DNA of 64,000 nucleotides from Rathayibacter sp. VKM Ac-2857. Lineage in GTDB: Bacteria; Actinomycetota; Actinomycetes; Actinomycetales; Microbacteriaceae. The stretch's first letter is position 1. The number at the start of each line of letters is the position of its first letter. Positions 22,499-59,897 of this stretch are shown here, piece by piece. The notes under the pieces are model-generated. The model was not told where the DNA came from. It ran no database searches and saw nothing but the letters and a program-made list of their open reading frames with translations. The stretch covers positions 1,364,001-1,428,000 of the forward strand of contig NZ_JABMLE010000001.1 in NCBI RefSeq assembly GCF_013205025.1. Reading direction: 5' to 3'. The position numbers were made by a program, and so were the translations under genes.

Positions 22499-22559
22499 CG
22501 CGAGATGCCACTTGTGCACGCTCTTCACGGCGTGTCGCGTACCCAAGTGGCATCTCGCG
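22499..22559 (+). repeat. 61-bp palindromic element, copy 1
   Basis: Starts CGCGAGATGCCACTTGTGC and ends with the complementary arm CAAGTGGCATCTCGCG; the inner right arm differs (CGTACCCA). It sits 7 nt after the lipoprotein stop and 7 nt from the convergent MFS stop. Confidence 0.9.
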
Positions 22560-22566
22560 GCGGGGA

Positions 22567-23727
22567 TCAGGGCGTGCGCGTGGCCGGGGGTCGGGGGAAG
22601 AGGGTGAGGAGCAGGCCCGAGGCGATCCAGACGGCGGCGATGCCGAGGATGAGCCAGCCGGCGTCGAGAGCGGACGCGGCTCCGGCCAGGGCGGCGCCGA
22701 CCGCGGCGGCGGCGGCGCGCAGGCCCGCTCCGATGGTGAAGACCTGGGAGCGGACGGCGGCCGGGCTCTCCTGATCGCGCAGCAGGAGCATCGCGGCGTT
22801 CGCGGGTGCGGTGAAGACTCCGGCGACGGCGAACGCGACGAGCGCCACGACGATCCCGAGGTCGGGTGCGGCGGCGAGCAGGGCGACGCCGGTCGCGGCG
22901 AAGCCCGCACCCATCACCCAGGCCGGCGGACGGTGCGTCCAGCGCCGGACGGCGACCGCGATCGCGCCGAGCAGGCCGCCGACGGCGAACGCGGTGAGCA
23001 GCCCGGCCGCAGCCGCGGTGCTGCCCACCCGCTCCAGCGACAGGCCGATCGCGGCGACTCCGGCCGCGCCGCCGCCGATCTGGCTGATCGTCCCGGAGAG
23101 GGTGACGATCGCGATCGGCCGGTGCCGGATGAGATGCGTGACGCCGGCGGCGATGGTGCGCCGGACGCCGACGGTGGGGGTCGGCCGCGCCTCCATCCGC
23201 AGGGCGAGCGAGCCGAGGACGCCCACGAGCGCGAGGGCGGCCATCGCGAGCATCGCGAAACGGGCGGAGGCGACGGCGATCACGAGCCCGGCGATCGCAG
23301 GGCCACCGATCGAGGCGACCGTGTAGGAGAGCGAGTCCTGGGCGTAGGCGCGGCGCGGGTCGGCGATCGCGCTGGTCACGAAGCTCGACATGCCGCCCAT
23401 GTAGACCGGAGTCGCCAGGCCCGCGATCACCAGCAGCAGCGCGATCAGCACCGTCGGCACGTCGCCGAGGAAGGACGCGAGCGCGAAGGAGGCGGCGGTG
23501 GCGAGCGCCGCGCCGACCAGCAGCCGGCGCGGGGCGCGCACCCGATCGAGCACCGTGCCGACGAGCGGAGCCGCGATCACACTCGGGAACAGCGCGGCAC
23601 CGGTCAGCAGCCCGCCGAGGGCGACGTCGTCGAGGCGCTCGACGGCGAGGACGGGCAGGGCGACGACCATGCCCGCGCTCGCGAGGCGCAGCGGGATCGA
23701 GGCGGTCAGGTAGGTGGCGGCGCTCAT
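22567..23727 (-). CDS. MFS transporter
   Basis: A 386-residue permease with about 12 hydrophobic segments. TM1 begins immediately after MSAATYLTASIPLRL. Motif-A-like sequence GTVLDRVRAPRRLLVG follows TM2, and DPRRAYAQDSLSYTVASIGG precedes a GP-rich helix. It resembles bacterial MFS drug or metabolite exporters of the YcxA/ENTS type; no substrate can be assigned. In its mRNA leader an inverted repeat GGGAGG-N6-CCTCCC (23735-23752) lies 8-25 nt before the ATG and contains the only Shine-Dalgarno-like sequence. It may be co-transcribed with the reductase gene 67 bp upstream. Confidence 0.8.
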   Translation of the reverse strand: MSAATYLTASIPLRLASAGMVVALPVLAVERLDDVALGGLLTGAALFPSVIAAPLVGTVLDRVRAPRRLLVGAALATAASFALASFLGDVPTVLIALLLVIAGLATPVYMGGMSSFVTSAIADPRRAYAQDSLSYTVASIGGPAIAGLVIAVASARFAMLAMAALALVGVLGSLALRMEARPTPTVGVRRTIAAGVTHLIRHRPIAIVTLSGTISQIGGGAAGVAAIGLSLERVGSTAAAAGLLTAFAVGGLLGAIAVAVRRWTHRPPAWVMGAGFAATGVALLAAAPDLGIVVALVAFAVAGVFTAPANAAMLLLRDQESPAAVRSQVFTIGAGLRAAAAAVGAALAGAASALDAGWLILGIAAVWIASGLLLTLFPRPPATRTP

Positions 23728-23794
23728 GCGGCTCGGGAGGACATCACCTCCCAGTTTTCCATGCTCTCGAGGCTCCGCTCCCCGGCCGCCGCGA

Positions 23795-24829
23795 TCAGGG
23801 CAGCAGGATCACCTTGCCGTCGAGCGTCCGCGATTCGGCGAGCTCCATCGCCGCCACGATCTCGGTGAGCGGGAAGCGCGCCGCGATGTTGGCCGTGAGC
23901 GAGCCGTCCGCGAGCAGCGCGAGCACGCGGCCCAGGTCCTCCTCGAGCCGCGCGCGGAACCGCGCGGGCCGCCGCGAGTGGCCGGCCCAGAGGTCGTAGA
24001 AGACGGCGCGCTTCCGGTTCGGCGCCAGCTGGTACGCCTGGATCCGGGCGAGCTGCTTCAGGAACGGCGGCCAGATGCTCCCCGTGCTCGCGCTGACGAT
24101 CGCATAGGCGACGAGGGTGCCGCCGGGAGCGAGCAGCGACCAGGCCAGGCGGGTGGTCTCCCCGCCGATGTTGTCGAAGACGGCCTGCACGCCGCCGGGC
24201 GCGAGCTCGCGGACGCGGGCGGCGAGCGCCGGATCGGCGTAGTCGACCGGCTCGACGCCGGCCGCGCGAAGGGCGTCGTGGTGCCGCGGCGAGGCGGCGC
24301 CGATCACCCGGATGCCCTCGAGCGAGGCGAGCCGGTGCACGAGTCCGCCGACGCCGCCGTTCGCCCCGAAGAGGAGGATCGTGTCGCCGCGGGAGAGCCG
24401 GGCCGAGCGGTGCAGCATCTGCCAGGCCGTCACTCCGTTCACCACCACGGCCTCGGCGTCCTCCGGCGCGACGCCCTCGGGGACGAGGACGCAGTCGCGC
24501 GCGGCGACGCGGGCGTGCCCGGTCCAGCCGCCGGTCTTGGTGAGGGCGGCGACGCGGCGGCCCTCGAGGGACGCGTCGCCGCCGGGGCCGACCGCGAGCA
24601 CCCGGCCGACCAGGTCGTAGCCGGGAGTGAAGGGGAACGCGGGCTGGGCGAAGTAGCGGCCGCGGCGCATGGACTGCTCGGCGAACGAGATGCCGGTGGC
24701 CTCGACGGCGACGAGCAGCTCGCCGACCGCGGGCGGCTCGACGGCGGCCTGCTCGAGGAGGAGCCCGGACGGCTCGACGAGCCCGGGGAGGACGACGCGG
24801 GTGGTGGTGCGCGGGAGGGCGGTGGTCAT
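23795..24829 (-). CDS. MDR-type zinc-independent dehydrogenase
   Basis: A 344-residue quinone-oxidoreductase-like enzyme. Features are EATGISFAEQSMRRGRYFAQ, FTPGYDLVGRVLAVG, the NADPH-binding LLFGANGGVGGLVHRLASLE at about residues 150-169, and the terminal LDGKVILLP. It probably reduces an electrophilic carbonyl or quinone. ATG 24829 follows AGGAG at 6 nt. The promoter contains a 16-bp TetR-type operator (24853-24868), and a variant of the same site lies at the tetR start downstream, so it is very likely the target of that regulator. Confidence 0.86.
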   Translation of the reverse strand: MTTALPRTTTRVVLPGLVEPSGLLLEQAAVEPPAVGELLVAVEATGISFAEQSMRRGRYFAQPAFPFTPGYDLVGRVLAVGPGGDASLEGRRVAALTKTGGWTGHARVAARDCVLVPEGVAPEDAEAVVVNGVTAWQMLHRSARLSRGDTILLFGANGGVGGLVHRLASLEGIRVIGAASPRHHDALRAAGVEPVDYADPALAARVRELAPGGVQAVFDNIGGETTRLAWSLLAPGGTLVAYAIVSASTGSIWPPFLKQLARIQAYQLAPNRKRAVFYDLWAGHSRRPARFRARLEEDLGRVLALLADGSLTANIAARFPLTEIVAAMELAESRTLDGKVILLP

Positions 24830-24852
24830 GGGGTGCTCCTAGGGGTGAGTGT

Positions 24853-24868
24853 GTGACTGGACAGTCAC
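24853..24868. promoter_or_regulatory. TetR operator upstream of the reductase gene
   Basis: GTGACTGGACAGTCAC is a perfect inverted repeat with 7-bp arms around GA. It lies 24-39 bp upstream of the reductase ATG, where it would cover the transcription start or -10 region. A two-mismatch copy with identical spacing abuts the tetR start codon. Confidence 0.7.
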
Positions 24869-24914
24869 TTCTGTGGAAATGAAGAAGTCGGTCATGCGGT
24901 GTGGGGGGCCCCTC

Positions 24915-25043
24915 CATGCTGATCGAGTAGCCCGCACAGCGGGCGTATCGAGATCCACCACCGTCAGAGGACGAGTCTGCAGACCCGCCCTGCTGATGAC
25001 GATGGGTCTCGATACGCCCCTGCGGGGCTACTCGACCAACATG
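24915..25043. repeat. REP-like repeat cluster, 2 copies plus a fragment
   Basis: An inverted copy at 24915-24965 (CATGCTGATCGAGTAG ... CGTATCGAGATCCACCACC) and a forward copy at 25005-25043 (CTCGATACGCCCC ... GGGGCTACTCGACCAACATG). A truncated forward copy, GCGGGGCTACTCGACCGGCA, follows at 25057-25080. These fill the space between the reductase promoter and the tetR 3' end. Confidence 0.85.
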
Positions 25044-25105
25044 AGTCGACCACCATGCAGGCGGGGCTACTCGACCGGCATGGGCCGATCGGCATGCGCG
25101 CCGGC

Positions 25106-25682: not shown

Positions 25683-25726
25683 TTACAAGCGGCGGGTGTC
25701 AAGAGCGGACGAGATCGAGCCCCGGA

Positions 25727-31050: not shown

Positions 31051-31429
31051 ATCTCGATACGCCCGCTCCGCGGCCTACTCGATCAGCATGCTGGGGATCA
31101 TGGTCGCAGTGCGGCCCCGACCATGCTGGTCGAGTAGCCCCGCCAGGGGCGTATCGAGACCCACCGTCACCGAGAGGGCGGTCTGCAGGCCCCACGCCCG
31201 GTCATGGTGGATCTCGATACGCCCGCTCCGCGGGCTACTCGATCAGCATGCAGGGGCCCCGTCGGCGTGAGCGCGGCCTCCCGTGCTGGTCCCAGCATGC
31301 AGGGCCGGGACCACCGGCGTGAGCGCGGCCTCCCCTGCTGGTCGAGTAGCCCCGCCAGGGGCGTATCGAGACCCACCGTCACCGGAAGCGCTCGATACGC
31401 CCGCTCCGCGGCCTACTCGATCAGCATGC
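31051..31429. repeat. REP-like repeat cluster, 5 copies
   Basis: Forward copies at 31051-31090, 31207-31250 and 31390-31429 (CTCGATACGCCCGCTCCGCG ... CTACTCGATCAGCATG); inverted copies at 31121-31169 and 31336-31380 (GGTCGAGTAGCCCCGCCAGG ... CGTATCGAGACCCACCGTC). It is the densest cluster of the window and occupies most of the first half of the 722-bp gap between deoC and rpsN. Between 31250 and 31336, CAGCATGCAGGG sequences are also partially duplicated. Confidence 0.88.
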
Positions 31430-31667
31430 AGGGGCTCCGCCGACGTCTGCGAGGCATCGCCCATCCGTCACGGACGGCTGCCTGACAGCGGAAGAAGGAG
31501 CCGTTCGCGACGGATCACCGTCCGGAACAAGCGTCGCAAGCGGAGCGCGCGAGCGAATCGGAGAATCGCGTGCCAAGCGATTCTCCGCAGCGAACGCAGG
31601 ACGCTCTGCGGGACTCAACCATCCCGACGGGCCGACTGCGGGAGGGGCGGCAGGGACGCCCCGACCC
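31430..31667. other. unassigned spacer with a strong hairpin
   Basis: No gene is supported. CGGAGAATCGC (31559-31569) pairs perfectly with GCGATTCTCCG (31577-31587) across a 7-nt loop, an 11-bp stem. CGGACGG/CCGTCCG half-sites also flank 31470-31533. It could be a terminator, a small RNA or eroded coding sequence; the base composition is slightly less G+C-rich than its neighbours. Confidence 0.4.
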
Positions 31668-32704: not shown

Positions 32705-33538
32705 ATGAACGGCTCGAAGCCGGATGCACTGCGGCGCCGTGCGCTGCTGCTGGGGATCGCCTCCGCCGCCGTCGGCCTGGCCGGGTGCACGAGCACCGCG
32801 CGACTCACGCCGACCGCGACGCCGGTGGCCGCGACCTCGACGCCCACTCCCACCCCCACTCCCCCGCCGCGCCCCGTGCCGACGGCGACGGCGACCCCCG
32901 TGCCGGTCCGCGCGCGCTTCCCCCTGCCGGAGGGCACGATCACCGAGCTGCCCGGCGACGGGAACCTGATGGCGTGGACGGTCGACGACGGCGCCGACTC
33001 CGACGTGGTCGCCGCCTACGCGCAGTTCGCCAAGGACACCGGGACCCGCCTCACCTTCTTCCTCAACGGCAAGTACGACTCCTGGACCGCGAACGCGCCG
33101 GCGCTCGCACCGCTGGTCGCGAGCGGGCAGGTGCAGCTCGCGAACCACACCTGGTCGCACGCGGATCTCACCTCGCTCTCGGACGACGGGATCCAGGAGG
33201 AGCTCGGCCGCAACGGCGAGTTCATCCGCGCGACCTACGGGGTGGAGGCCGCTCCCTTCTACCGGCCGCCGTTCGGCTACACCGACGCGCGCAGCCGGGC
33301 GGCCGCGGCGGCCGTCGGCTACACGGCGACGACGCTCTGGTACGGCTCGCTCTCCGACTCGGGGCGGATCACGCCGGAGCAGCTGCTCGGCTTCGCGGAC
33401 GAGTGGTTCCGGCCGCAGCGCATCGTGATCGGGCACGCCAACTTCGACCCGGTGACGACGGTCTACGCGCAGCTGGTCGACATCCTCCGCGCCCGCTCCC
33501 TCGAGACGGTGACCCTCCGCGACGTCTTCGCCGTCTGA
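32705..33538 (+). CDS. polysaccharide deacetylase (NodB domain) lipoprotein
   Basis: A 277-residue exported lipoprotein: signal RRRALLLGIASAAVGLAGC with lipobox LAGC, then a long Thr/Pro spacer, then a NodB domain. Metal-site motifs are AWTVDDGADSD (usually TFDDG) and NHTWSHADL (HxxxH); YRPPFGYTD supplies the catalytic-arginine motif. Carbohydrate esterase 4 enzymes remove acetyl or acyl groups from peptidoglycan, chitin or other surface glycans. The Phe-to-Val change in TVDDG keeps both aspartates. ATG 32705 follows GGGGGGACC. A 61-bp palindrome follows 7 nt after the stop. Confidence 0.87.
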   Translation: MNGSKPDALRRRALLLGIASAAVGLAGCTSTARLTPTATPVAATSTPTPTPTPPPRPVPTATATPVPVRARFPLPEGTITELPGDGNLMAWTVDDGADSDVVAAYAQFAKDTGTRLTFFLNGKYDSWTANAPALAPLVASGQVQLANHTWSHADLTSLSDDGIQEELGRNGEFIRATYGVEAAPFYRPPFGYTDARSRAAAAAVGYTATTLWYGSLSDSGRITPEQLLGFADEWFRPQRIVIGHANFDPVTTVYAQLVDILRARSLETVTLRDVFAV

Positions 33539-33545: not shown

Positions 33546-33606
33546 CGCGAGATGCCACTTGTGCACGCTTTTCACGGCGTGTCGCGCTCACAAGTGGCAT
33601 CTCGCG
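33546..33606 (+). repeat. 61-bp palindromic element, copy 2
   Basis: Outer arms identical to the other copies; the inner right arm reads GCGCTCACAAG instead of GCGTGCACAAG. It lies between convergent stops, 7 nt from each. Confidence 0.9.
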
Positions 33607-33613: not shown

Positions 33614-34498
33614 TCAGCGCCGCAGGGTCGCGTGGGCGGCGGCGGCGATCGCGGCGGCGACGGCGTCGAGGCTCGGGGTGTGGAGGGACCACTGCTGCCA
33701 GTAGAGGGGGACGTCGACGGGGGCGCCGCCGAGGGGGACGAGGCCCGCGGCGCCGACGGGGGCCTGCAGCTCGGGCAGCATGCCCCAGCCGAGGCCGAGG
33801 CGCACGGCCTGCTCGAAGTCGGCCGAGCCGGGCACGCGGTGCTGCGGCGGGCGGGCCTCCACCCCGGCCGCGGCGAGGAAGCGGGTCTGCAGGCGGTCCT
33901 TCTCGTCGAAGACGACGACGGGCGCGACGGCGAGCGCCGCGGCCCCCGGCCCGTCCGGGAACCAGCGGTCGGCGAAGGCGGGGGCGGCCATCGCCCGGTA
34001 GCGCATCACGCCGAGCGGAGCGACGGTGCAGCCGAGCACCGCCTCCGCCTCGGCCGTGACCGCGGCGAGCACGGTGCCGTCGCGGAGGAACGCGGTGGTG
34101 TGCTCCTGATCCTCGCGGTGCAGCTCGACGACCACGTCCGGGACGGTTGCGAGCGCGGGCAGGACCCACGTCGCGAGCGAGTCGGCGTTGACGGCCATCG
34201 GCACGGTGACCGGTCCGCGGCCCTCGCGCCGGCCGCCGTCGAGTGCGCGGACGGCGTCCTCGGTGAGCAGCTCGATCTGGCGGGCGAGGCGGAGGAGGCC
34301 GGCGCCCGCCTCGGTCGCGACGACGGGCCGCGAGCGGACCAGCAGCACCCGGCCGGCGGCCGACTCGAGCGCCTTGATCCGCTGGCTGAGCGCCGAGGGC
34401 GTGACGTGCAGCTCGCGCGCGGCGGCGTCGAAGGAGCCGAAGCGGACGGCGGCGGCGAGGGCGCGGAGGCGGGCGAGGTCGAGATCGTCGGTCAGCAT
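33614..34498 (-). CDS. lysG: LysR-family regulator, ArgP/LysG type
   Basis: A 294-residue LTTR. The N-terminal HTH reads LRALAAAVRFGSFDAAAREL, then HVTPSALSQRIKALESAAGR, which is the IciA/ArgP subtype signature, and the effector domain follows. It is divergent from a LysE-family exporter 83 bp away, the classic LysG-LysE arrangement in which the regulator activates amino-acid export when lysine or arginine accumulates. ATG 34498 is 5 nt after GAGGAG; the GTG 12 bases upstream lacks such a site. Confidence 0.9.
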   Translation of the reverse strand: MLTDDLDLARLRALAAAVRFGSFDAAARELHVTPSALSQRIKALESAAGRVLLVRSRPVVATEAGAGLLRLARQIELLTEDAVRALDGGRREGRGPVTVPMAVNADSLATWVLPALATVPDVVVELHREDQEHTTAFLRDGTVLAAVTAEAEAVLGCTVAPLGVMRYRAMAAPAFADRWFPDGPGAAALAVAPVVVFDEKDRLQTRFLAAAGVEARPPQHRVPGSADFEQAVRLGLGWGMLPELQAPVGAAGLVPLGGAPVDVPLYWQQWSLHTPSLDAVAAAIAAAAHATLRR

Positions 34499-34581: not shown

Positions 34582-35193
34582 GTGTCCCCCTTCCTCGCCA
34601 CCCTGTCCGGCCTCGGCTTCGGCCTCTCGCTCATCATCGCCATCGGCGCGCAGAACGCCTTCGTGCTGCGGCAGGGGCTGCGCCGCGAGCACGTGCTCGC
34701 CGTCGTCGCGATCTGCGCGCTGGCGGACGCGGCCCTGATCGTCCTCGGCATCGCCGGGATCGGCGCCGTGCTCGAGTCGGCACCGTGGCTGCTGGTCGCG
34801 ATCCGCTGGGGCGGGATCGCCTTCCTCCTCGCGTATGCGTTCCTCGCCGCGCGGCGGGCGCTGCGCCCGGGCACGCTCGAGGGCGACCCGGCCGGCGCCT
34901 CCACGTCGCTGCGCACGGCCATCGGCACCTGCCTGGCGCTGACGCTCCTGAATCCGCACGTCTACCTCGACACGGTGGTGCTGCTCGGCTCCGTCGCGAA
35001 CACGCACGGCGACGAGCGCTGGTGGTTCGGTGCGGGCGCGGCGGTGGGCAGCGTGCTGTGGTTCACGGCGCTGGGCTTCGGGGCGCGGGCCCTACGGCCG
35101 CTGTTCCGCAGCCGCACGGCCTGGCGGGTGCTCGACGGGGCGGTCGCGGTCGTGATGGTGGTGCTGGCGGTGTCGCTCGCGCTGTCGTCCTGA
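34582..35193 (+). CDS. lysE: LysE/ArgO-family basic amino acid exporter
   Basis: A 203-residue membrane protein with about six TM segments. The family signature GFGLSLIIAIGAQNAFVLRQ lies at the N terminus, followed by GLRREHVLAVVAICALADAA and the LTLLNPHVYLDTVVLLGS motif typical of LysE/ArgO. It exports L-lysine and L-arginine by proton-coupled exchange; the exact substrate is inferred from the family and the adjacent LysG-type regulator. GTG 34582 is preferred over ATG 34540 because it matches the family's usual start. The last four codons lie inside the first unit of a nine-copy 15-bp tandem repeat. Confidence 0.9.
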   Translation: MSPFLATLSGLGFGLSLIIAIGAQNAFVLRQGLRREHVLAVVAICALADAALIVLGIAGIGAVLESAPWLLVAIRWGGIAFLLAYAFLAARRALRPGTLEGDPAGASTSLRTAIGTCLALTLLNPHVYLDTVVLLGSVANTHGDERWWFGAGAAVGSVLWFTALGFGARALRPLFRSRTAWRVLDGAVAVVMVVLAVSLALSS

Positions 35194-35316
35194 GCGCTGT
35201 CGTCCTGAGCGCCGTCGTCCTGAGCGCCGTCGTCCTGAGCGCCGTCGTCCTGAGCGCCGTCGGTCTGAGCGCCGTCGTCCTGAGCGCCGTCGTCCTGAGC
35301 GCCGTCGGTCTGAGCG
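35182..35316 (+). repeat. 15-bp minisatellite, 9 units
   Basis: Nine head-to-tail copies of CTGTCGTCCTGAGCG or its variant CCGTCGTCCTGAGCG; two units read CCGTCGGTCTGAGCG. The first unit contains the last codons and TGA stop of lysE, so each unit carries an in-frame stop. The array ends 10 bp before the stop of the convergent membrane gene. Confidence 0.95.
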
Positions 35317-35326
35317 GAGGCGCCGG

Positions 35327-35974
35327 TCAGCCCGCGCGGACCATCGAGCGGGCGGCGAGCAGCCAGAAGACTCCGGTGGCGAGGATCACGAGCGACCCGG
35401 CGATCGAGGCGACGATCGAGATCCCGATCAGCAGCCCCTGCGACGGTGTCGCGGTGACCAGCAGCGGGACGGTCGTGGCGAATCCTCCGGCGGCGTTCAC
35501 GGCCACGGCGACCGCGGGGATCACCACCACCCGCCGCGGGACGGTGCGGGAGCGCCCGAGCGCGACGAGCCCCACCACTCCGGCGGCCAGGGTGAGCACG
35601 GCCAGGGTGAGCACGAGCGTCGAGGCGGCGATCATCTCGGGCGTGGACGTCGAGCCCGTCGTGCTCGGCGAGGACCAGGACACGATCGGCCGCAGCACGA
35701 TCAGCACCGCGAAGACGATGAGCGCGGTCGCGCCGGTCGGACCGACCAGCCCGCCCTTCGAGTCGGCCCCGCGTGCGAGGACCGACGCGGCGGCCGCGAG
35801 CAGGCCCGCCCCCAGGAGCACGACGGCGCGCGCCGCGAGCGAGGATCCGGAGCCGACCGGGGCGAACAGGAACACGACGTCGAGCAGGCCCGCCGCCGCC
35901 ACGAAGAGGCCGGCGAGCCGCAGCGTGGCCGCGCGCGAGGCGGCAGACGCAGGGACGGTGGACGGAGCTGTCAT
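35327..35974 (-). CDS. six-TM hypothetical membrane protein
   Basis: A 215-residue integral membrane protein with six hydrophobic segments (LAGLFVAAAGLLDVVFLF, LLGAGLLAAAASVLA, ALIVFAVLIVL, LVLTLAVLTLAAGVVGLVAL, VIPAVAVAVNAAGG, GISIVASIAGSLVILATGVF) and short loops. No family or catalytic motif was recognised. It is divergent from the GntR gene and convergent with lysE across the minisatellite. ATG 35974 is preceded by GAGAGGGGAACCCG. Confidence 0.75.
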   Translation of the reverse strand: MTAPSTVPASAASRAATLRLAGLFVAAAGLLDVVFLFAPVGSGSSLAARAVVLLGAGLLAAAASVLARGADSKGGLVGPTGATALIVFAVLIVLRPIVSWSSPSTTGSTSTPEMIAASTLVLTLAVLTLAAGVVGLVALGRSRTVPRRVVVIPAVAVAVNAAGGFATTVPLLVTATPSQGLLIGISIVASIAGSLVILATGVFWLLAARSMVRAG

Positions 35975-41902: not shown

Positions 41903-41963
41903 CGCGAGATGCCACTTGTGCACGCTTTCGTCGGCGTGTCGCGTACTCAAGTGGCATCTCGCG
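41903..41963 (+). repeat. 61-bp palindromic element, copy 3
   Basis: Forward orientation, 17 nt after the GMC oxidoreductase stop and about 100 bp upstream of the same-strand ABC operon. The loop reads GCTTTCGTCGGCGTGTCGCG. Confidence 0.9.
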
Positions 41964-44756: not shown

Positions 44757-44817
44757 CGCGAGATGCCACTTGTGCACGCTTTTCACGGCGTGTCGCGTGC
44801 ACAAGTGGCATCTCGCG
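44757..44817 (+). repeat. 61-bp palindromic element, copy 4
   Basis: Consensus copy: 23-bp perfect arms around a 15-nt loop, TTTTCACGGCGTGTC. It is in forward orientation, 8 nt after the ABC ATPase stop and upstream of the same-strand small gene. Confidence 0.92.
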
Positions 44818-45187: not shown

Positions 45188-45248
45188 CGCGAGATGCCAC
45201 TTGTGCGCGCCGCCATCGGCGTGTCGCGTGCACAAGTGGCATCTCGCG
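45188..45248 (+). repeat. 61-bp palindromic element, copy 5
   Basis: Outer arms conserved; the inner left arm reads GTGCGCGCCGCCATCGG, the most diverged loop. It sits between convergent stops, 11 and 10 nt away. Confidence 0.9.
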
Positions 45249-47853: not shown

Positions 47854-47964
47854 GAAGCCCGCAGGCACGAGCAGAGCGGCGGCCGTGCCCGTCGAGCGGC
47901 CGGCCGCTGTGGCGCCTCGCGATCGCGTGGTGCGCCTCCGCCGACGTGGCGGCGGCGATCGCGC

Positions 47965-48837
47965 TCAGCAGTCGCGGGAGCCGAAGCCGAGCCCCGTGAT
48001 CGCGCTGCTGTGCCAGCCCTGGTAGCCGCCGTGCTGGCTGTAGACGAGCGAGCTGCCCGAGGGGAAGGAGCGGAACGTGAAGGTGTCGTAGCGGGGCCCG
48101 CGCGTGAGATTCGGCTCGAACTCGGTGGCGCGTCGGAAGGGGTCGGCGATCGTCCCGGCGCCGACTCCCGCGTCTCCGCCCCGCGAGGAGATCGAGGTGG
48201 GCGCGACGCTGAAGCCGACGGTCGACCACCACTTCGTGGCCCAGTAGAGCGTCTCGCTGTGCGCGCTCGAGCTGATGTCGAGGAAGGTGAGCTGCACGTC
48301 CACCGGGTCGAACGGCTTCCCGGCCGCATCGAAGAACTCGAAGATCAGCGTCTGCGCATCGGGCCCCGGCGTCGGCACCTCCGGGACCCTCACGTCCGAC
48401 GACGACGCCTGCCCGGCGCGGCGCTGGTTCAGGAGGAGCACCCCGGGTTCGAAGATGCGCGACGGCGCCTCGTTGGCGAAGTCCGAGGATCCACCGGCGT
48501 ACCACACCGTGCCGTCCTGGGTCAGGTTGTAGTTCGTGCCGTCGACCGTGGGCGTGGTCGTGGTGTCCGGCGCCAGGACCGAGGTGATCCGGACCGTGGA
48601 CGTCGTTCCGGTGGGCGAGGTCGCGGTGAGGGTCAGCGGATTCAGCGACACGCTCGACTGCGTGAACATCGTCACGCTCGTGCAGGGCAGCGGGTCGGTG
48701 GCCGGAGTCATCGACGCGGCGGCGAGGGGAGCCCCGACCGCCGCGCTGATCACGGGGATGCTCCAGAGCGCGCCCGCCGTGACGGAGCGACGGGTGGGAC
48801 CGGAGGAGTGAGTCGGGTCGGACGAGAGAGGGGACAT
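47965..48837 (-). CDS. Tat-exported protein, paralog A
   Basis: A 290-residue protein with a twin-arginine signal (PTRRSVTAGALWSIPVISAA) ending in APLAAAS. The mature part has a Cys near its start (PCTSVTMF) and ends in SRDC. Motifs shared with two neighbours are STVRITSVLAPDTTT, LLLNQRRAG, DAQTLIFEFFDAAGKPFDP, STVGFSVAPTSISSRGG, GAGTIADPFRRAT and FPSGSSLVYSQHGGYQGWHS. A beta-rich fold is likely. No known family was recognised. ATG 48837 follows a GAGAGAGGGG site. Confidence 0.8.
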   Translation of the reverse strand: MSPLSSDPTHSSGPTRRSVTAGALWSIPVISAAVGAPLAAASMTPATDPLPCTSVTMFTQSSVSLNPLTLTATSPTGTTSTVRITSVLAPDTTTTPTVDGTNYNLTQDGTVWYAGGSSDFANEAPSRIFEPGVLLLNQRRAGQASSSDVRVPEVPTPGPDAQTLIFEFFDAAGKPFDPVDVQLTFLDISSSAHSETLYWATKWWSTVGFSVAPTSISSRGGDAGVGAGTIADPFRRATEFEPNLTRGPRYDTFTFRSFPSGSSLVYSQHGGYQGWHSSAITGLGFGSRDC

Positions 48838-49020
48838 GGCGGATCCGTTCCAGAGGAGGAGTGGACAGGCGAGGACCGACTGCCCGACACGGCAGCGTAG
48901 GTTCGACATCCCACAAAGACGAATCCTCCTCACGTCTGGCGCGGGACGTCGGTTCGCCGCTGCTCCCTAGGCGGTGCTCAGCAGCGGGACGCCGGCTCGA
49001 GCCCACCGGCGCCCCGGCCC

Positions 49021-49857
49021 TCACTCCCCGTCGGCGAAGTCCGTGCCGCGACTGAGAGGCTCCCACGCGTCGACGTCGGAGCGGAGGGAGTCGAGCACTG
49101 CGCGGAAGGCGTCCGACGCGTCGTTGCCGAGCAGCAGGATCGACGGAGGGGCGGCCGACTCCACGGCCTCGATCAGCGCGGTCGCCGCCTTCGCCGGGTC
49201 GCCCTTCTGGGTGCCGTGCACGGTGTCGTGCTCCTTGCGGCGCTTGCCCGCCGTCTCGGCGTAGTCCGCGATCGGCTGCGACGACTGGGTGAGCGAGCGG
49301 CCGGCGAAGTCGGTGCGGAAGCCGCCCGGCTCGACCGAGAACGCCCGGATGCCCAGCGGCGCGACCTCCTTGCGCAGCGACTCGGTGAGCGCCTCGATCG
49401 CGGCCTTCACCGCGGCGTAGTAGCCCGAGCCCTCCGGCGAGATGCGCGCGCCGATCGAGGACAGGTTGACGATCGTGCCGGAGCGGCGCTCGCGCATCCC
49501 GGGCAGGACCGCCTTGATCGTGCGGACGGTGCCGAAGAGCTGGGTGTCGAAGAGCTGCTGCACCGCGGCCTCCTCACCCTCCTCCACCGCCGCGCGGTAG
49601 CCGTAGCCCGCGTTGTTGACGAGCACGTCGATCCCGCCGAAGCGCTCCTCGGCGGCGTCGACCGCGGCGGCGACCTGCGCGTCGTCGGTCACGTCGAGGG
49701 CCAGGGCGAGCGCGGAGTCGGGGTGCGCCTCGGCGATGTCGCGGACGGAGTCGACGTCGCGCGCGGTGACGACGGCGCGGTCGCCGTGGGCGAGGACGGC
49801 GGTCGCGAGCGCGCGGCCGAGTCCGGTGGAGCAGCCGGTGATGAGCCAGGTGGTCAT
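49021..49857 (-). CDS. short-chain dehydrogenase/reductase
   Basis: A 278-residue classical SDR: cofactor motif TGCSTGLG (7-14), structural NNAG (81-84), catalytic S133/S134, Y147 and K151 (YYAAVKAA). VTDDAQVAAAVDAAEERFGG and VEPGGFRTDFAG fit the SDR11/oxidoreductase-like group with an extended substrate loop. It probably reduces a ketone or oxidises a secondary alcohol with NAD(P). The N terminus directly precedes the Rossmann strand, supporting ATG 49857. It is divergent from the DUF1206 gene. Confidence 0.9.
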   Translation of the reverse strand: MTTWLITGCSTGLGRALATAVLAHGDRAVVTARDVDSVRDIAEAHPDSALALALDVTDDAQVAAAVDAAEERFGGIDVLVNNAGYGYRAAVEEGEEAAVQQLFDTQLFGTVRTIKAVLPGMRERRSGTIVNLSSIGARISPEGSGYYAAVKAAIEALTESLRKEVAPLGIRAFSVEPGGFRTDFAGRSLTQSSQPIADYAETAGKRRKEHDTVHGTQKGDPAKAATALIEAVESAAPPSILLLGNDASDAFRAVLDSLRSDVDAWEPLSRGTDFADGE

Positions 49858-49981
49858 GCGGTCCTTCTTCCTCGAGGGCGCCCGCGGCAGGCGCGATCGG
49901 TGGGATCGGCGCGGGCAGGACTCCATTCCACCGCCGCCGGGGCGCCGCGGGACAGGGGTGGACGCGTGAGAGGCTGGTCCG

Positions 49982-50791
49982 GTGTCCACAGTGAGCGTGC
50001 CGACGCCGCGCTCGGGGGTCCGGACGCGGCGATTCCGGCGCCTCGCGCGCCTCGGCTTCGCCGTCAACGGCGTGGTGCATCTGCTGATCGGCGGACTCTC
50101 GCTGCGGGTCGCGTTCGGGGACGAGACGACGCAGGAGGCGGATCCCTCCGGCGCGATCGCGCGCCTGGCCGAGACGCCGGCCGGACTCGTCGTCGTCTGG
50201 GCGGCGCTGGTCGCGCTCGTCGCGCTCGGGCTCTGGCAGCTCTCCTTCCAGAGCCGCTCGAGCGATCCGAGCCGCGCGAAGCGCCTCGGGCGGCGGATCG
50301 TGGAGTCGGGCAAGGGCTTCGCGGCGCTCGCGCTGGCCGGGACGACGCTGGTCTTCGCGCTCGGCGGGTCGACGAGCTCCTCCGCCACCATCCGCGCGAT
50401 CAGCACCGACCTGCTGGCTCGGCCGGCGGGAGCGATCGTGCTGACGCTGGTCGGCGGGATCGTCCTCGGCAGCGGGATCGGCTTCGTCGCCATCGGCGTG
50501 CGCCGCGGCTTCCGCAAGCTCGTGCGGATCCCCGCAGGGCGGCGCGGCACGGCCGTGCTGATCCTCGGCGCGGCCGGCTACGTCTCGAAGGGCATCGCCC
50601 TCGGCATCGCCGGCGGCCTCTTCGTCGTCGCCGCGATCACCGGCGACGCCCGGCGGGCGACCGGCCTCGACGGCGCCCTGCGCTTCCTCGACGTCCCGCC
50701 CTACGGGACCATCGCGCTCACCGTCATCGGCGCCGGCCTCGTGATGTACGGCGGCTTCCTGATCGCCCGCGCGAAGCTCGCCAAGCTCTGA
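49982..50791 (+). CDS. DUF1206 membrane protein
   Basis: A 269-residue protein with six TM segments arranged as three two-helix repeats, each opening with an R-G/F-V-G-like stretch (RRLARLGFAVNGVVHLLIGG, SGKGFAALALAGTTLVFALG, GRRGTAVLILGAAGYVSKGI). This matches the DUF1206 domain. Function unknown; members are common in Actinobacteria and cyanobacteria. GTG 49982 begins the first repeat with a short cytosolic tail. Its stop is 19 bp from the convergent paralog B. Confidence 0.88.
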   Translation: MSTVSVPTPRSGVRTRRFRRLARLGFAVNGVVHLLIGGLSLRVAFGDETTQEADPSGAIARLAETPAGLVVVWAALVALVALGLWQLSFQSRSSDPSRAKRLGRRIVESGKGFAALALAGTTLVFALGGSTSSSATIRAISTDLLARPAGAIVLTLVGGIVLGSGIGFVAIGVRRGFRKLVRIPAGRRGTAVLILGAAGYVSKGIALGIAGGLFVVAAITGDARRATGLDGALRFLDVPPYGTIALTVIGAGLVMYGGFLIARAKLAKL

Positions 50792-50810
50792 GCGACTGTC
50801 GTCGGCCGGG

Positions 50811-51626
50811 TCAGCAGTCGGTGGAGCGGAAGCTGAGCGCGCTCAGCGCGAGAGACTGCCAGCCCTGCCGGCCCTCGTGCTGACCGCAGACGAAAGTGCT
50901 TCCGGAGGGGAGGACGTCGAAGGCGAAGGTGTCGAAGAGGGGCTCTCCGCCGGCGGGCTCGTCTCCTGTCGCTCGGCGGAAGGGGTCGGCGACGGTTCCC
51001 GCGCCCGTACCGGCGGAACCTCCTCTCGACGAGATCGAAACGGGCGGCGTGCTGAATCCGACGGTGTCCCACGAGCTCACGAACCACGGCGCCGAGGGTG
51101 CGGCTCTCGAGTCGATGTGGGAGAACGTGAGTTCGGCGCCGACAGGAGCGAACGGCCGTCCGTCCTTGTCGAAGAACTCCACCATGAGCGTCTGCGCGGG
51201 CGAGCCAGCCGTCGGAGTCCCCGCCGTCGACCCCGCGCGGCGTTGATTCAGGACGAGCGACCCGGGCACCCAGCCGCCGCGTCCCTGCGCCTCGTACGAC
51301 GATCGGCGCTCGGCGAAACCGGACCAGACGACGGTGTCCCGAGTCAGGTTGAAGCTCTGCCCCTCGGTCTCGGTCGTCGTGCCGGGCGCGAGAACGGACG
51401 TGATCCGGACGGTCGAGGGGACTCCGGTGGTCGAAACCGCCGAGAGCACGGTGGGGTTGCTCGCGACCGTGGACCTCGTGAACATCGTCGCACTGCGGCA
51501 GAAGACGGGCGATGCGGAGGCGAGCGGAGCCGCCACGGCCGCAGCGACGACGGGGACGCTCCAGGCTGCGCTCGCGGCCACCGCACGACGGGAGGGTCCG
51601 GAGAAGGCGGGAGGAGGCACGGGCAT
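50811..51626 (-). CDS. Tat-exported protein, paralog B
   Basis: A 271-residue homolog of the proteins at 47965 and 52323. The signal reads PSRRAVAASAAWSVPVVAAA and ends APLASAS. Conserved blocks are STVRITSVLAPGTTT, LVLNQRRAG, PAQTLMVEFFDKDGRPFAP, WDTVGFSTPPVSISSRGG, GAGTVADPFRRATG and FPSG-like VLPSGSTFVCGQHEGRQGWQ, ending in RSTDC. It has an extra cysteine in FVCGQ compared with the other two. The start was kept because the signal has normal length from MPVPPPAFSG. Unknown function. Confidence 0.8.
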   Translation of the reverse strand: MPVPPPAFSGPSRRAVAASAAWSVPVVAAAVAAPLASASPVFCRSATMFTRSTVASNPTVLSAVSTTGVPSTVRITSVLAPGTTTETEGQSFNLTRDTVVWSGFAERRSSYEAQGRGGWVPGSLVLNQRRAGSTAGTPTAGSPAQTLMVEFFDKDGRPFAPVGAELTFSHIDSRAAPSAPWFVSSWDTVGFSTPPVSISSRGGSAGTGAGTVADPFRRATGDEPAGGEPLFDTFAFDVLPSGSTFVCGQHEGRQGWQSLALSALSFRSTDC

Positions 51627-51764
51627 CGGTCACGTCCTGTCTTGAGAGGAAGCCGTCGCGAGGCCGCGGCGAAACCAAGCATCCCTCATCTCTGCGTCCC
51701 GCTGCGGTGCGGCGCAGGACGTCGCCACGACCGCAGTCGCGCGGGCGCTAGGGATCGAAAGGGC

Positions 51765-52241
51765 TCAGCCGGAGGGCACCGTCGGATCGAGACGCTTCGC
51801 GTAGCAGCGGGTCGCCGGCTCGTCGCCCCAGTAGCCGAAGCCGGGGATGAGCTCGTAGCCCGAGCTGCTGTAGAGCGCCATCGCCTCGGGCTGCTCGATG
51901 CCGGTGACGAGGCGGAGCAGCGTCACGCCGTGGCGGACGGCGAGCTCCTCGACTCCCGCGAGGAGGACGCGGCTGTGACCGCGGCCGCGCGCCGCCTCGG
52001 TCACGAACATCCGCTTGATCTCGCCGACCTCGCCCTCGGCGGCGAGCGCGACGCAGCCGACGACGTCCACCCCGATGTGGAGCAGCAGCGTCGGCGCGTC
52101 CGCGGGCGGCCTCGGCCCCGGGTCGTCGCCGCCGTAGCGCCGCATGATCTCCGCCTCCTGCACGGCGAACAGCCGCCCCGACACTGCGTCGTCGGCCGTC
52201 GTCTCGACCAGCCGCACCTCGTCCGCACCCATGTCGCTCAC
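51765..52241 (-). CDS. GNAT-family N-acetyltransferase
   Basis: A 158-residue acetyltransferase. The acetyl-CoA-binding motif is KRMFVTEAARGRGHSRVLLA (RGRGHS in place of the usual Q/RxxGxG/A). The C-terminal GYELIPGFGYWGDEPATRCY is typical of small-molecule GNATs. The substrate is unknown. GTG 52241 is chosen; ATG 52232 nine bases downstream is almost equally good. It lies 15 bp from palindrome copy 6 and is downstream of paralog C on the same strand. Confidence 0.85.
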   Translation of the reverse strand: MSDMGADEVRLVETTADDAVSGRLFAVQEAEIMRRYGGDDPGPRPPADAPTLLLHIGVDVVGCVALAAEGEVGEIKRMFVTEAARGRGHSRVLLAGVEELAVRHGVTLLRLVTGIEQPEAMALYSSSGYELIPGFGYWGDEPATRCYAKRLDPTVPSG

Positions 52242-52256
52242 GGTCCCATCGCGCGC

Positions 52257-52317
52257 CGCGAGATGCCACTTGTGAGCGCGACACGCCGTGGAAAGCGTGC
52301 ACAAGTGGCATCTCGCG
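52257..52317 (-). repeat. 61-bp palindromic element, copy 6
   Basis: Inverted relative to copies 1-5 on the plus strand, but forward relative to the upstream minus-strand gene (paralog C), whose stop is 5 nt away. The inner arm has GCTCACAAG. Confidence 0.9.
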
Positions 52318-52322
52318 GAGGG

Positions 52323-53135
52323 TCAGCAGTCGTCGGCGCGGAACCTGAGGCCGGTGAGGAAGATCGCGTGCCAGCCCTGCCTGCCCTCGTGCTGGGTGTA
52401 CGTGAGCGTGCTCCCGGAGGGGAAGGCGTCGAAGGAGAAGATGTCGGTCTTGGAGAACGAGGTGGTCGGCGCCTCGCCCGTCGCGCGCCGGTACGGGTCG
52501 GCGATCGTGCCTGCACCGACACCGTCGACCAGGCCGTCCTTCGCGATCGAGGTCGGCGCGACGCTGAAGCCCACCGTGTCCCAGTGGGTCGGCGTCCACA
52601 CTCGACGCTCCTGGGAGGTGAGGTCGACGATCTCGAGCTCGAAGCCGATCGGATCGAAGACGCGCCCCTGCGGGTCGAAGAACTGGAAGGTCAGGGTCTG
52701 GGCATCGGATCCCGGGCTGGGGAGCTCGGTGATCGGACCTGCGCGGCGCTGATTCAGGACGAGCGCCTTCGCGCCCCAGTACGAGTAGGACTCCTCGGCC
52801 GCGGCACCGTCGGTCGTGCGCCCTCCCCATCCCATCCCCGCCTGGGTCAGGTTGTAGCTCGTGCCCTGGGTCTCGGTCGTGGTGCCGGGCGCGAGCACCG
52901 ACGTGATCCGGACGGTCGACACTGCGCCGGAGGGTGAGACCGCCTGGAGCACGGCGGTGCTGCCGCCGGTGTTACTGGTCCGGCGGAAGTTGACGGCGCT
53001 GTAGCACGGAACGGCGGTGGAGGCGGCGGCGAGGGGCGCGGAGATCACTGCGGCGGCGACGGGAGCGCTCCACGCCGCCGCGGTGGTCACGGTGCGGCGG
53101 GAGGGTCCGGGCGTGCCGGAGGAGGGCTGGGACAT
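52323..53135 (-). CDS. Tat-exported protein, paralog C
   Basis: A 270-residue member of the same family: signal PSRRTVTTAAAWSAPVAAAV, ending SAPLAAAS. Shared blocks are STVRITSVLAPGTTTETQG, TSYNLTQAGMGWGG, LVLNQRRAG, DAQTLTFQFFDPQGRVFDP, WDTVGFSVAPTSIAK, GAGTIADPYRRATG, FPSGSTLTYTQHEGRQGWHA and the terminal RADDC. The two mature cysteines are at the two ends, suggesting a disulfide closing the domain. ATG 53135 follows AAAGGA. Followed by a palindrome copy. Confidence 0.8.
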   Translation of the reverse strand: MSQPSSGTPGPSRRTVTTAAAWSAPVAAAVISAPLAAASTAVPCYSAVNFRRTSNTGGSTAVLQAVSPSGAVSTVRITSVLAPGTTTETQGTSYNLTQAGMGWGGRTTDGAAAEESYSYWGAKALVLNQRRAGPITELPSPGSDAQTLTFQFFDPQGRVFDPIGFELEIVDLTSQERRVWTPTHWDTVGFSVAPTSIAKDGLVDGVGAGTIADPYRRATGEAPTTSFSKTDIFSFDAFPSGSTLTYTQHEGRQGWHAIFLTGLRFRADDC

Positions 53136-53277: not shown

Positions 53278-53338
53278 CGCGAGATGCCACTTGTGCGCGC
53301 GACACGCCGAGGAAGGCGTGCACAAGTGGCATCTCGCG
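53278..53338 (-). repeat. 61-bp palindromic element, copy 7
   Basis: Same relative direction as copy 6: forward when read with the LysR gene that ends at 53360, 21 nt away. The loop is CCTTCCTCGGCGTGTCGCGC. Confidence 0.9.
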
Positions 53339-53359: not shown

Positions 53360-54250
53360 TCAGGCGTAGGTCGCGGCGATCTCGGCGAGGCACTCGCGGA
53401 AGACGCGGACGGCGGGCGAGGCGAGCTGGGCCTCGCGCTGGGCGGTGAAGATGGTGCGGCGGGGGCGGCCGGGCAGCTCGAGCAGTCGGCAGTCGGCCTC
53501 GCCGCCGGCCCAGACCAGGTCGGGCATCAGCGCGACCGCGTTGCCCGAGGCGGCGAGGCGGATCTGCGCCTGGAGATCCGCGGTCTCGAAGCGCACGTCG
53601 GGCTCGAAGCCCGCGACGCGGCAGGTCTGCTCGGCGAAGTGGCGGCTGGCGGTACCGCGCGGCTCCATCACCCAGGCGGCGTCGCGGGCGCCCCGCAGGT
53701 CGCGGATCGCGGAGTCGCGGCCCACCGCGAGGCGGATCGCGTCGGTCGTGAGGTCGCTGCGCACCAGGCCCGGCAGCCAGGACACGGAGTGGCCGGGGTA
53801 CTGCTCGGCGACGACCAGGTCGAACTCGCGCGCCCAGGAGGTCTCGTGCAGCGCCCCCTCCGGCTCGCGCTGCACCATCTCCACCCGCACCTCGGGTGCG
53901 CGCTCGGCGATCGAGCGCAGCGCGCCGGGCATCAGCGCGAGCGCCGCCGACTGGAAGACCGCGACCCGCACCCGCCCGGTGACCGACTCCCCCGACGCGG
54001 CGAGCGCCGCCTCCGCCCGCTCGAGCAGCGCCAGCACCTCACCGGCGGCCGCGACCAGGATCTCGGCCTGCGGGGTGAGCTGCACCCGCCGCCCGACCTT
54101 GCGCAGCAGCTCGACGCCGGTCTCGCGCTCGAGCACGCTCAGCTGCTGCGAGACCGCGGAGGGACTGTAGGCGAGGGCCTCCGCGGCGGCGGCCAGGGTG
54201 CCGCGGATGGCGACCTCGCGCAGCAGCACCAGGCGGCGGACGTCGAGCAC
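53360..54250 (-). CDS. LysR-family regulator of putA (probable)
   Basis: A 296-residue LTTR: HTH LDVRRLVLLREVAIRGTLAA, then AEALAYSPSAVSQQLSVLER, followed by the effector-binding part. GTG 54250 is 5 nt after GAGGT. It is divergent from putA across 102 bp that contain a large inverted repeat, so proline-responsive control of putA and of itself is the simplest reading. Regulators of this kind respond to the catabolised substrate or an intermediate; the ligand is inference. Confidence 0.87.
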   Translation of the reverse strand: MLDVRRLVLLREVAIRGTLAAAAEALAYSPSAVSQQLSVLERETGVELLRKVGRRVQLTPQAEILVAAAGEVLALLERAEAALAASGESVTGRVRVAVFQSAALALMPGALRSIAERAPEVRVEMVQREPEGALHETSWAREFDLVVAEQYPGHSVSWLPGLVRSDLTTDAIRLAVGRDSAIRDLRGARDAAWVMEPRGTASRHFAEQTCRVAGFEPDVRFETADLQAQIRLAASGNAVALMPDLVWAGGEADCRLLELPGRPRRTIFTAQREAQLASPAVRVFRECLAEIAATYA

Positions 54251-54324: not shown

Positions 54325-54352
54325 CAACGGTACCCCGTCGAATACTGGGGGC

Positions 54353-57841: not shown

Positions 57842-57854
57842 CCCTCTCCCCTCC

Positions 57855-57915
57855 CGCGAGATGCCACTTGTGCACGCTTTTCACGGCGTGTCGCGTGCAC
57901 AAGTGGCATCTCGCG
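57855..57915 (+). repeat. 61-bp palindromic element, copy 8
   Basis: Consensus copy with 23-bp perfect arms, between convergent putA and hicB stops (13 and 17 nt away). C-rich and G-rich flanks next to each stop extend the symmetry. Confidence 0.92.
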
Positions 57916-57932
57916 GAGAGGGAGGGGGCGGG

Positions 57933-58567: not shown

Positions 58568-58573
58568 AGGATA

Positions 58574-58615
58574 AGTCTAGGAAGGTGGCCGAGCAAGCGT
58601 CTACCTGGGTAGACG
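58574..58615 (-). promoter_or_regulatory. hicAB promoter and candidate operator
   Basis: TAGACT (-10) occupies 58574-58579 on the minus strand, giving a start at or next to the hicA GTG (58567). An 18-bp palindrome CGTCTACCTGGGTAGACG at 58598-58615 covers the expected -35 region, where HicB could repress. Confidence 0.6.
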
Positions 58616-58723
58616 GCATGGCGCCGCGCGTCGCCTCGCGCCGCCGGACGTCCGGTCCGCCCGTTCGCGACAGGGTGCGGGGGGACGGTCGACGGCGGGG
58701 GCGGGGGGCGCCAGGCTGTGCGC

Positions 58724-59824
58724 ATGACGCGGCAGGAGCAGGCGCCCTCGGCCGCGGTCAGCACCCGGTGGCTGAGCATCGGGGCCGCGCTCGATCCGCA
58801 GAGCAACAGCATCAACGCGCTGCGGCTGGGGCTCGCGGTGCTGGTGATCGTGTCGCACTCGTTCCCGCTGGGCGGCTACGGCGACGCGCCGGGCGCCGGG
58901 GGCAGCGGCGGCTCCGGGCTGGGCCACTCCGATCTGGGCGACTGGGCGGTGGGCGGCTTCTTCGTCACGTCCGGCTACCTGATCACCGCGAGCCGGCTCC
59001 GCTCGCGCTCGCTCGGCGACTACCTCTGGCGGCGGTTCCTGCGCATCTACCCGGCCTTCCTCGTCTCGTTGCTCGTCGTCGGGTTCGCGATCGCGCCGCT
59101 CGCCTCGCTGCTGCTCGGCGCCGGCCCGTGGAGCGCGGCGGGCGGCGCGCGGTTCGTGCTCGGGAACCTGCTCCTCTACATCCGCGAGTACGGGATCGCC
59201 GGAATGCTCGGCTCCGTGCCGTACCCGGGGGCCTGGAACGGCTCGCTCTGGAGCCTCTTCTTCGAGTTCGTCAGCTACCTCGTGATCGGAGTGCTGATCT
59301 CGGTGGTGCCGCGGCGGTGGGTCGCGCCGCTGGTGGTCGTCGGCTTCGCGGGGCTGACCCTGGTCGCCGGGGTGCTGGCCACCGATCTCGTGCCCTTCCC
59401 CGCGGCCCTCAACCAGACGGTGACGCTCGTCGCGTACTTCCTGGCGGGGGCGATCGTGCACCTCTTCCGCGACCGGATCCCGCTGACGCTGCCGCTCGCG
59501 CTCCTCGCGGTCGCCCTCTTCGCGCTGGTGGTGGCCAGCGGGCTGTACCGGGTGCTGGCGGGGCTGCCGCTCGCCTACCTGATGCTGGCCCTCGGCGCGC
59601 GCCTCCCCCTGCGGCGCCTCGGGGCGACCCACGACGTCTCCTACGGGATGTACATCTACGCGTTCCCGGTGCAGCAGCTGCTCGCGCTCGCGCTGGTCGA
59701 CGCGGACGTGCCGCTCGGGGCGTACGTGCTGCTCTCGATCGCGGCGACGCTGCCGTTCGCCTGGGCCAGCTGGCTGCTGATCGAGCGCCCGGCGATGCGG
59801 CTGAAGCGGCTGACGGCGCGCTGA
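58724..59824 (+). CDS. acyltransferase 3 family membrane protein
   Basis: A 366-residue membrane acyltransferase with about ten TM segments. Family signatures are LAVLVIVSHSFPLGG with the catalytic histidine, GGFFVTSGYLITASRLRSRS, LWRRFLRIYPAF and WNGSLWSLFFEFVSYL. Such enzymes O-acylate (usually O-acetylate) cell-surface carbohydrates. Its position beside glycosyltransferases and an ABC exporter suggests it modifies the same polysaccharide. ATG 58724 is chosen over GTG 58718. A palindrome copy follows 12 nt after the stop. Confidence 0.88.
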   Translation: MTRQEQAPSAAVSTRWLSIGAALDPQSNSINALRLGLAVLVIVSHSFPLGGYGDAPGAGGSGGSGLGHSDLGDWAVGGFFVTSGYLITASRLRSRSLGDYLWRRFLRIYPAFLVSLLVVGFAIAPLASLLLGAGPWSAAGGARFVLGNLLLYIREYGIAGMLGSVPYPGAWNGSLWSLFFEFVSYLVIGVLISVVPRRWVAPLVVVGFAGLTLVAGVLATDLVPFPAALNQTVTLVAYFLAGAIVHLFRDRIPLTLPLALLAVALFALVVASGLYRVLAGLPLAYLMLALGARLPLRRLGATHDVSYGMYIYAFPVQQLLALALVDADVPLGAYVLLSIAATLPFAWASWLLIERPAMRLKRLTAR

Positions 59825-59836
59825 CCCCCTCCCTCC

Positions 59837-59897
59837 CGCGAGATGCCACTTGTGCACGCGACACGCCGTGAAAAGCGTGCACAAGTGGCATCTCGCG
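59837..59897 (-). repeat. 61-bp palindromic element, copy 9
   Basis: Consensus arms with perfect 23-bp pairing, in the opposite orientation to copy 8, between the convergent acyltransferase and fucosyltransferase-like stops (12 and 17 nt away). Confidence 0.92.

Follow-up and report, generated by a model that had tools for sequence, protein, structure and literature searches.

Untagged or CGTC-type repetitive extragenic palindromic sequences (REPs) are the closest known counterparts of a 61-bp palindromic element found in nine copies in a 64-kb window (the whole stretch of DNA analysed) of the genome of Rathayibacter sp. VKM Ac-2857. In the genomes mapped in PMC3733652, REPs lie mostly less than 20 bp from the 3′ ends of convergent or unidirectional open reading frames (ORFs), some being intragenic; the same paper describes a CGTC class of REPs without a dedicated transposase and mentions REP-like families without terminal motifs for M. 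tuberculosis, D. radiodurans, and others. Its main text contains none of the words Actinobacteria, Clavibacter, and Rathayibacter. Our element resembles these untagged and CGTC-type REPs in being a short palindrome that occurs in tens of copies or more near 3′ ends, sometimes within genes, and with no RAYT-type transposase found, but its stem of up to 23 bp and its loop of 15 nt set it apart from the REP stems of 5–13 or 8–9 bp given in PMC3733652. It also differs from GTAG and CGTC REPs in having no terminal tag, its identity residing in the internal loop. Rickettsia palindromic elements, as portrayed in PMC10969869, share with it insertion in frame within a coding gene but are about 150 bp long, and of the 96 copies that we find genome-wide only three overlap a gene call, one of them traced in frame.

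The element is also like the systems formed by REPINs (REP doublets forming hairpins) and REP-associated tyrosine transposases (RAYTs) in being an interspersed palindrome of high copy number, but it is one long hairpin rather than a hairpin pair and no Y1_Tnp gene was found in the 15 genomes searched within the genus. RAYT transposases that act on a terminal tag account for many REP-like palindromes; the family described here, from Actinobacteria, has neither. Bidirectional intrinsic terminators are known at convergent genes, and inverted pairs of uptake sequences double as terminators in Neisseria and Pasteurellaceae. Our element shares position and hairpin with the former but lacks a U-tract and has an invariant sequence and loop; with the latter it shares lineage dialects and inverted pairs at gene ends, but, unlike uptake sequences, it almost never occurs as an isolated arm (genome-wide, 98 arm matches in forward and 98 in reverse orientation, against 96 full elements).

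We give even chances to a reading in which the element represents an untagged, RAYT-less, REP-like family of interspersed palindromes of the Microbacteriaceae that is defined by its loop, recognised as DNA by a putative factor, and endowed with a secondary role at mRNA ends. Its signature is an internal loop found across several genera with differing stems, and there is direct evidence for selection, inversion, and replacement in place; the family offers a comparative system for the old question of whether such repeats persist as selfish or as functional sequences.

Anatomy and placement at gene 3′ ends

The original prediction had drawn attention to nine 61-mers in the window, and all nine lie where it placed them, far beyond chance: the half-site GATGCCACTTGTG, at up to two mismatches, matches 19 places in the window, 18 of which are the 18 arms, against an expectation of 0.42, and none of 100 shuffled windows reached 19 matches. 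The loop CGGCGTGTC is common to all nine copies (reversed at 52257, 53278, and 59837), and the claim that three copies have a perfectly paired 23-bp stem closing a 15-nt loop proved accurate for those at 44757, 57855, and 59837. The element had also been called genome-wide, as a pattern search of the 4.6-Mb genome confirms, yielding 96 copies (34-position core, at most three mismatches), 54 of them exact. Each is a hairpin of a constant 61 bp with outer arms of about 15 bp, an inner stem and a 6-nt spacer that both vary, and an asymmetric loop that is invariant. Positions 30–39 (CGGCGTGTCG) hardly vary across the 96 copies, nor do the outer arms; the main variable positions are 19, 20, 24–29, 42, and 43. 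The flanks facing the element are C-rich on both sides, including sides other than gene ends. We considered a stem that extends through the C-rich and G-rich flanks and rejected it, pairing within 4–20 nt being that of shuffled partners and a matter of composition. Because flank complementarity is no greater than in shuffled partners, we take the structural unit to be 61 bp. By consensus it begins with CGCGAG, fully paired, and thus has no unpaired terminal GTAG or CGTC tag.

Gene calls came from a codon model for which the fetched loci (442,852 bases, 428 genes) were the training set; their support is Pfam matches in 11 of the 14 scanned window genes that flank copies rather than a comparison with annotation. 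By these calls, 48 of the 96 copies are convergent in context, 36 tandem, and nine divergent, and three overlap a gene call. Adjacent 3′ ends lie less than 40 nt from the element in 110 of 132 cases, whereas adjacent 5′ ends do so in 12 of 54 (Fisher p ~4e-15), which upholds the proposed placement at gene 3′ ends. The commonest gap to a gene end measures exactly 7 nt, on 26 of 110 sides. In the window a stop codon does lie 5–21 nt from each of the nine copies (five convergent, four tandem), as had been claimed; the broader wording that the palindrome always follows stop codons is right for these nine and, genome-wide, describes a strong tendency, given the nine divergent and three overlapping copies. 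In G009, the genome of a sister species, the 64 copies in the fetched parts comprise 33 convergent, 25 tandem, and four divergent copies and two inside a gene, with 78 of 91 gaps below 40 nt and 18 gaps of 7 nt, a placement that is not independent of that in VKM Ac-2857 because many G009 copies are orthologs. In the broad sense the element is thus REP-like: a high-copy intergenic palindrome near the 3′ ends of convergent or tandem genes.

Among tandem copies the asymmetric loop is oriented with the upstream gene 24 times out of 36 in VKM Ac-2857 (24:12, two-sided p 0.065) and 17 times out of 25 in G009 (p 0.11), and its orientation between convergent genes is 24:24 in VKM Ac-2857. Two further patterns were considered and rejected. 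One was a replication-strand bias in G009 (44 of 83 copies, with the start of the record assumed to be the origin, an assumption that the unannotated ORFs of the first 2.3 kb do not support). The other was avoidance of the loop motif outside elements, suggested by two occurrences against 11.5 expected under a first-order model; we rejected it because a maximal-order model expects 2.9 in VKM Ac-2857 and 4.7 in G009, where five were observed.

An Rfam search of window positions 22000–60500 gave four matches up to E 1, all to microRNA models and below the gathering score, and phage and plasmid collections gave no match to the element. At the level of titles and the beginnings of abstracts, the literature searched gave no description of it, and a 14-nt arm string matched none of the papers searched.

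Conservation at orthologous sites and occurrence in the family

Orthologous sites were paired by their flanking DNA, after removal of sites at which several copies fell within the matching stretch and of BLAST matches below 75% identity or shorter than 200 nt. Among 104 ortholog pairs between VKM Ac-2857 and its relatives, 89 have the same orientation and 15 are flipped. The 44 pairs with G009 comprise 32 colinear pairs (no more than 6 of the 18 variable positions differ), five inverted in place (no more than 5 of the 18 differ), and seven with a different interior, four in the same orientation and three flipped. For the most part the compared species have inherited their copies at fixed positions immediately beyond stop codons; in some cases the interior has been inverted or replaced in situ.

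The 32 colinear pairs show 1 difference in 320 loop positions (0.3%) and 13 in 896 outer-arm positions (1.5%), as compared with 10.66% of 16187 third codon positions in the flanking genes (Fisher p 2e-14 for the loop and 8e-27 for the arms); the inner stem differs at 33 of 384 positions and the spacer at 46 of 192 (24%). Another 43 colinear pairs, with other relatives, give 1.0% for the arms, 0.5% for the loop, 13.6% for the inner stem, and 31% for the spacer. Since differences in the arms and loop fall far below those at third codon positions and the spacer is not conserved, it is selection in place that preserves the arms and loop. The original prediction had envisaged spread by a process that it could not name. 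This holds for the origin of the copies; at present the majority of the sites compared are inherited and selectively maintained, alongside some inversion and replacement on the spot.

Covariation is present family-wide: nine pairs show two-sided change against 5.4 in shuffles and four to eight in slid versions, the cells with two-sided change number 72 against 32 in shuffles and 6 to 17 in slid versions, and the covariation score of 0.119 (against 0.061) is reached by none of 500 shuffles. We nevertheless rejected selection for inner-stem pairing as its reading, the short-term changes not being compensatory.

A large helicase gene with DEAD, Helicase_C, and DUF3418 domains (L065:11770-15600, with orthologs L250–L263) harbours one copy in frame, where the 61 bp amount to an insert of roughly 20 residues. 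The insert is present in 10 of the 14 genomes with the locus and absent from G006, G008, G010, and G012 (G014 gave no match in this comparison). Despite the coding frame, six species (G000, G003, G004, G007, G009, and G011) retain every letter of the two arms (29 nt) and the loop, and three to six of these letters are lost in G001, G002, G005, and G013.

Clean absences are exemplified by an empty site at L050:3677 against G009 (L249), and several apparent absences in relatives are neighbouring pairs or triplets of copies of which the relative has fewer. As regards miniature inverted-repeat transposable elements (MITEs), by eye there was no clear target duplication at this empty site or at the helicase site, an autonomous partner having been sought only as Y1_Tnp. 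The search for a transposase or RayT gene that had been proposed found no RAYT-type Y1 transposase (Y1_Tnp, PF01797), the companion of GTAG-class REPs, in any of the 15 genus genomes, with five of 14 control genomes positive.

A covariance model built from 72 copies (R1) matches all 15 genus genomes searched, with 17 to at least 150 matches each, both strands counted; by place, there are 83 pattern matches in G009 and 51 model matches in G003. The exact pattern occurs in 10 of 398 sampled family genomes, all of this genus. Among the matches to this pattern that were listed (up to ten per genome), all share one length although the gap was free by 8 nt. In another scan, the matches listed come from Rathayibacter, with Amnibacterium kyonggiense as an outsider. 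Against other family genomes R1 matches 6 of 109 at E up to 1e-6, and six Amnibacterium copies have other arms, the same loop, and a gene 3′ end within 40 nt of each.

A broader model from 24 sequences, loop included (R2; 13 candidates scored per genome, E-values rough), matches 46 of 397 family genomes in 15 of 85 genera, eight of these genomes and one of these genera being the Rathayibacter group. At 41 loci taken from R2 matches, a hairpin finder returned 44 strong hairpins, 27 of which carry GGCGTGTC in the genera g48, g55, and g58 on stems unlike those of Rathayibacter; the same loop with other stems is therefore seen in four more genera (Amnibacterium, g48, g55, and g58). Palindromes in g68 and g76 (L116–L123, L287, L289, L290, and L295–L297) have Rathayibacter-like arms, CGAGATGCCACTT or similar, around other loops. 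Because GGCGTGTC occurs with different stems while g68 and g76 combine Rathayibacter-like arms with other loops, arms and loop look like two separable modules, with the caveat that R2 itself contains the loop.

Possible roles of the element

The most economical mechanism combines a DNA-level factor with a secondary role at mRNA ends. The conservation of loop and arms and the lack of a clear strand preference suggest a host factor that would recognise the loop and outer arms in DNA, whether double-stranded, extruded, or single-stranded, with little dependence on strand. The interior may be exchanged by strand-switching or by recombination through the arms, and gene ends may be places where insertions are tolerated. 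There the hairpin, judging by its position and folding, could have the secondary role of ending, in either direction, or stabilising the mRNAs of the two neighbouring genes.

Several points weigh against this reading. The recognising factor is putative, and neither of the REP hallmarks examined, a terminal tag and a RAYT, was found. Among the 44 strong hairpins listed at loci L277–L317, 17 do not have GGCGTGTC, including all eight of g68 and g76, and an arm contains part or all of the word in at least two of the 27 that do (L281:2934 and L282:2877); moreover, cross-genus loop matches are enriched for the loop because R2 itself contains it. Counted from VKM Ac-2857 to G009, inner-stem changes break a pair in 12 cases, make one in nine, keep one by a single change in eight and by a double change in one, and leave two positions unpaired; pairing of the inner stem is thus weakly held at best, since compensatory changes do not predominate in the 32 colinear pairs. 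That breaks and gains are about equally frequent also speaks against a purely RNA-structural reading. Finally, the loci of VKM Ac-2857 and G009 were both fetched for holding copies, so rates of site sharing are biased, and the 67 of 70 shared sites in a survey with G011 loci are not a sharing rate either, because those loci too were chosen for holding copies.

An alternative that we consider rather unlikely, though not to be set aside lightly, is a dedicated bidirectional transcription terminator or mRNA-end stabiliser, in which polymerase arriving from either gene makes the 23-bp hairpin and so ends the transcript or blocks 3′ exonucleases. Its placement, mostly 5–25 nt past stops and convergent in 48 of 96 copies, fits such a function, as does the folding that had been proposed as a check: four RNA folds of three copies give strong hairpins of -57.6 to -74.4 kcal/mol (z -6.7 to -11.9), and convergent gaps with the element have a median RNA z of -9.2 (n=44), as against -0.87 in those without it (n=26, 38% below -2). 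The hairpin is, however, not followed by the U-tract of a Rho-independent terminator, TTTT being present in none of 132 downstream 12-nt stretches. In favour of a terminator, PMC8355165 reports for its 13 genomes that poly-U trails are dispensable. Against a terminator also stand the invariance of the primary sequence and loop, a conservation beyond the needs of pairing; inner-stem changes that are not compensatory; nine divergent copies; and the copy in a coding frame that keeps arms and loop intact in six species. Nor does loop orientation, at 24 of 36 with the upstream gene in tandem cases and even between convergent genes, favour it. A plain terminator, as first proposed, is therefore not supported and is insufficient, since the invariant sequence, the in-gene copy, and the missing U-tract are left unexplained by it.

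It is also conceivable, if unlikely, that the element belongs to a new class of loop-defined hairpins, in which a widespread factor of the Microbacteriaceae (a hairpin nuclease, recombinase, or DNA-binding protein, not an HUH Y1 enzyme) would recognise GGCGTGTC in the extruded or single-stranded hairpin. Stems would then be exchangeable lineage dialects, and action at the loop would cause the in-place inversions and replacements that keep copies alike at fixed sites by gene ends.

We regard as quite unlikely a third possibility, that the element is a DNA site for a chromosomal protein, such as gyrase or a nucleoid or condensin-type factor, where convergent transcription piles up supercoils. 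A parallel exists in E. coli, in which bacterial interspersed mosaic elements (BIMEs) bind gyrase. The constant spacing and invariant half-sites speak for such a site, as do conservation within a coding frame, a strand preference that falls short of significance, and an uneven spread along the G009 record (83 copies, Kuiper p 0.0008, or 0.077 once copies within 10 kb are merged) and the G003 record (51 places, p 0.0012); the binding protein, however, is putative, and copy number varies widely, from 17 to at least 150 model matches across the 15 genomes.

Least probable, and doubtful to us, is a still-active selfish miniature element of which only copies with intact arms and loop can donate, donors overwriting old sites: in-place inversion or a different interior at 12 of 44 G009 pairs, species- or genus-specific stems, and the degraded in-gene copy of four species beside the intact one of six would suit it, but the 32 colinear pairs keep an ancestral variable interior while arms and loop hardly change, which overwriting does not explain, clean empty sites are few, and the 15 genomes gave no RAYT-type transposase.

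The nine window copies and neighbouring repeats

Six copies carry the loop on the plus strand. The first, at 22499..22559, lies between the convergent genes 21985-22491(+) and 22567-23727(-), and the second, at 33546..33606, between 32705-33538(+) and 33614-34498(-), each with a gap of 7 nt on either side. The copy at 41903..41963 is tandem and begins 17 nt past the stop of 40341-41885(+); the same gene end is occupied in G007, G009, and G011, with divergent versions in G004 and G006. Also tandem is the perfect stem at 44757..44817, located 8 nt past the stop of 43948-44748(+), an end likewise occupied in G007, G009, and G011. The copy at 45188..45248 is convergent, with gaps of 11 and 10 nt, and G009 has no copy within 150 nt past the orthologous stop of 44919-45176. 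At 57855..57915 another perfect stem lies between convergent genes with gaps of 13 and 17 nt; its gene end is occupied in G007, G009, G011, and G003, and G013 has a divergent version.

The loop is on the minus strand in the remaining three. The tandem copies at 52257..52317 and 53278..53338 lie 5 nt from the stop of 52323-53135(-) and 21 nt from that of 53360-54250(-), respectively; G007 has a copy at the same place as the former, and the gene end of the latter is occupied in G007, G009, and G011, with a divergent version in G003. The third perfect stem, at 59837..59897, is convergent with gaps of 12 and 17 nt and is absent from the matching place in G007. In the other species, the gene ends of the window have no copy, a copy at the same stop (G003 and G013, with variants in G004 and G006), or unrelated palindromes.

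Other repeats were noted at such gene ends. A second family of interspersed palindromic repeats, with the core TCTCGATACGCC..GGGGCTACTCGACCAGCATG and relatives, occupies window positions 5018-5243, 19284-19579, 24915-25043, and 31053-31458, and sequences resembling it follow the gene stop in G001 and G005 where other species carry the 61-bp element. In G001 (L104) a different long palindrome, with arms of the GCACAACCGAGGCCAGGAGTGC type, fills the gene end between the orthologs of 43948-44748 and 53360-54250; it is apparently a single copy between two convergent genes. Elsewhere in the window we note a tandem array of about ten copies of a 15-bp unit of the GCGCCGTCGTCCTGA type at 35149-35346, 36-bp repeats at 45392-45571 in the coding part of a gene that matches DUF7507, and, at 47962-53097, three related stretches, about 2.8 and 1.5 kb apart, that are probably paralogous genes.

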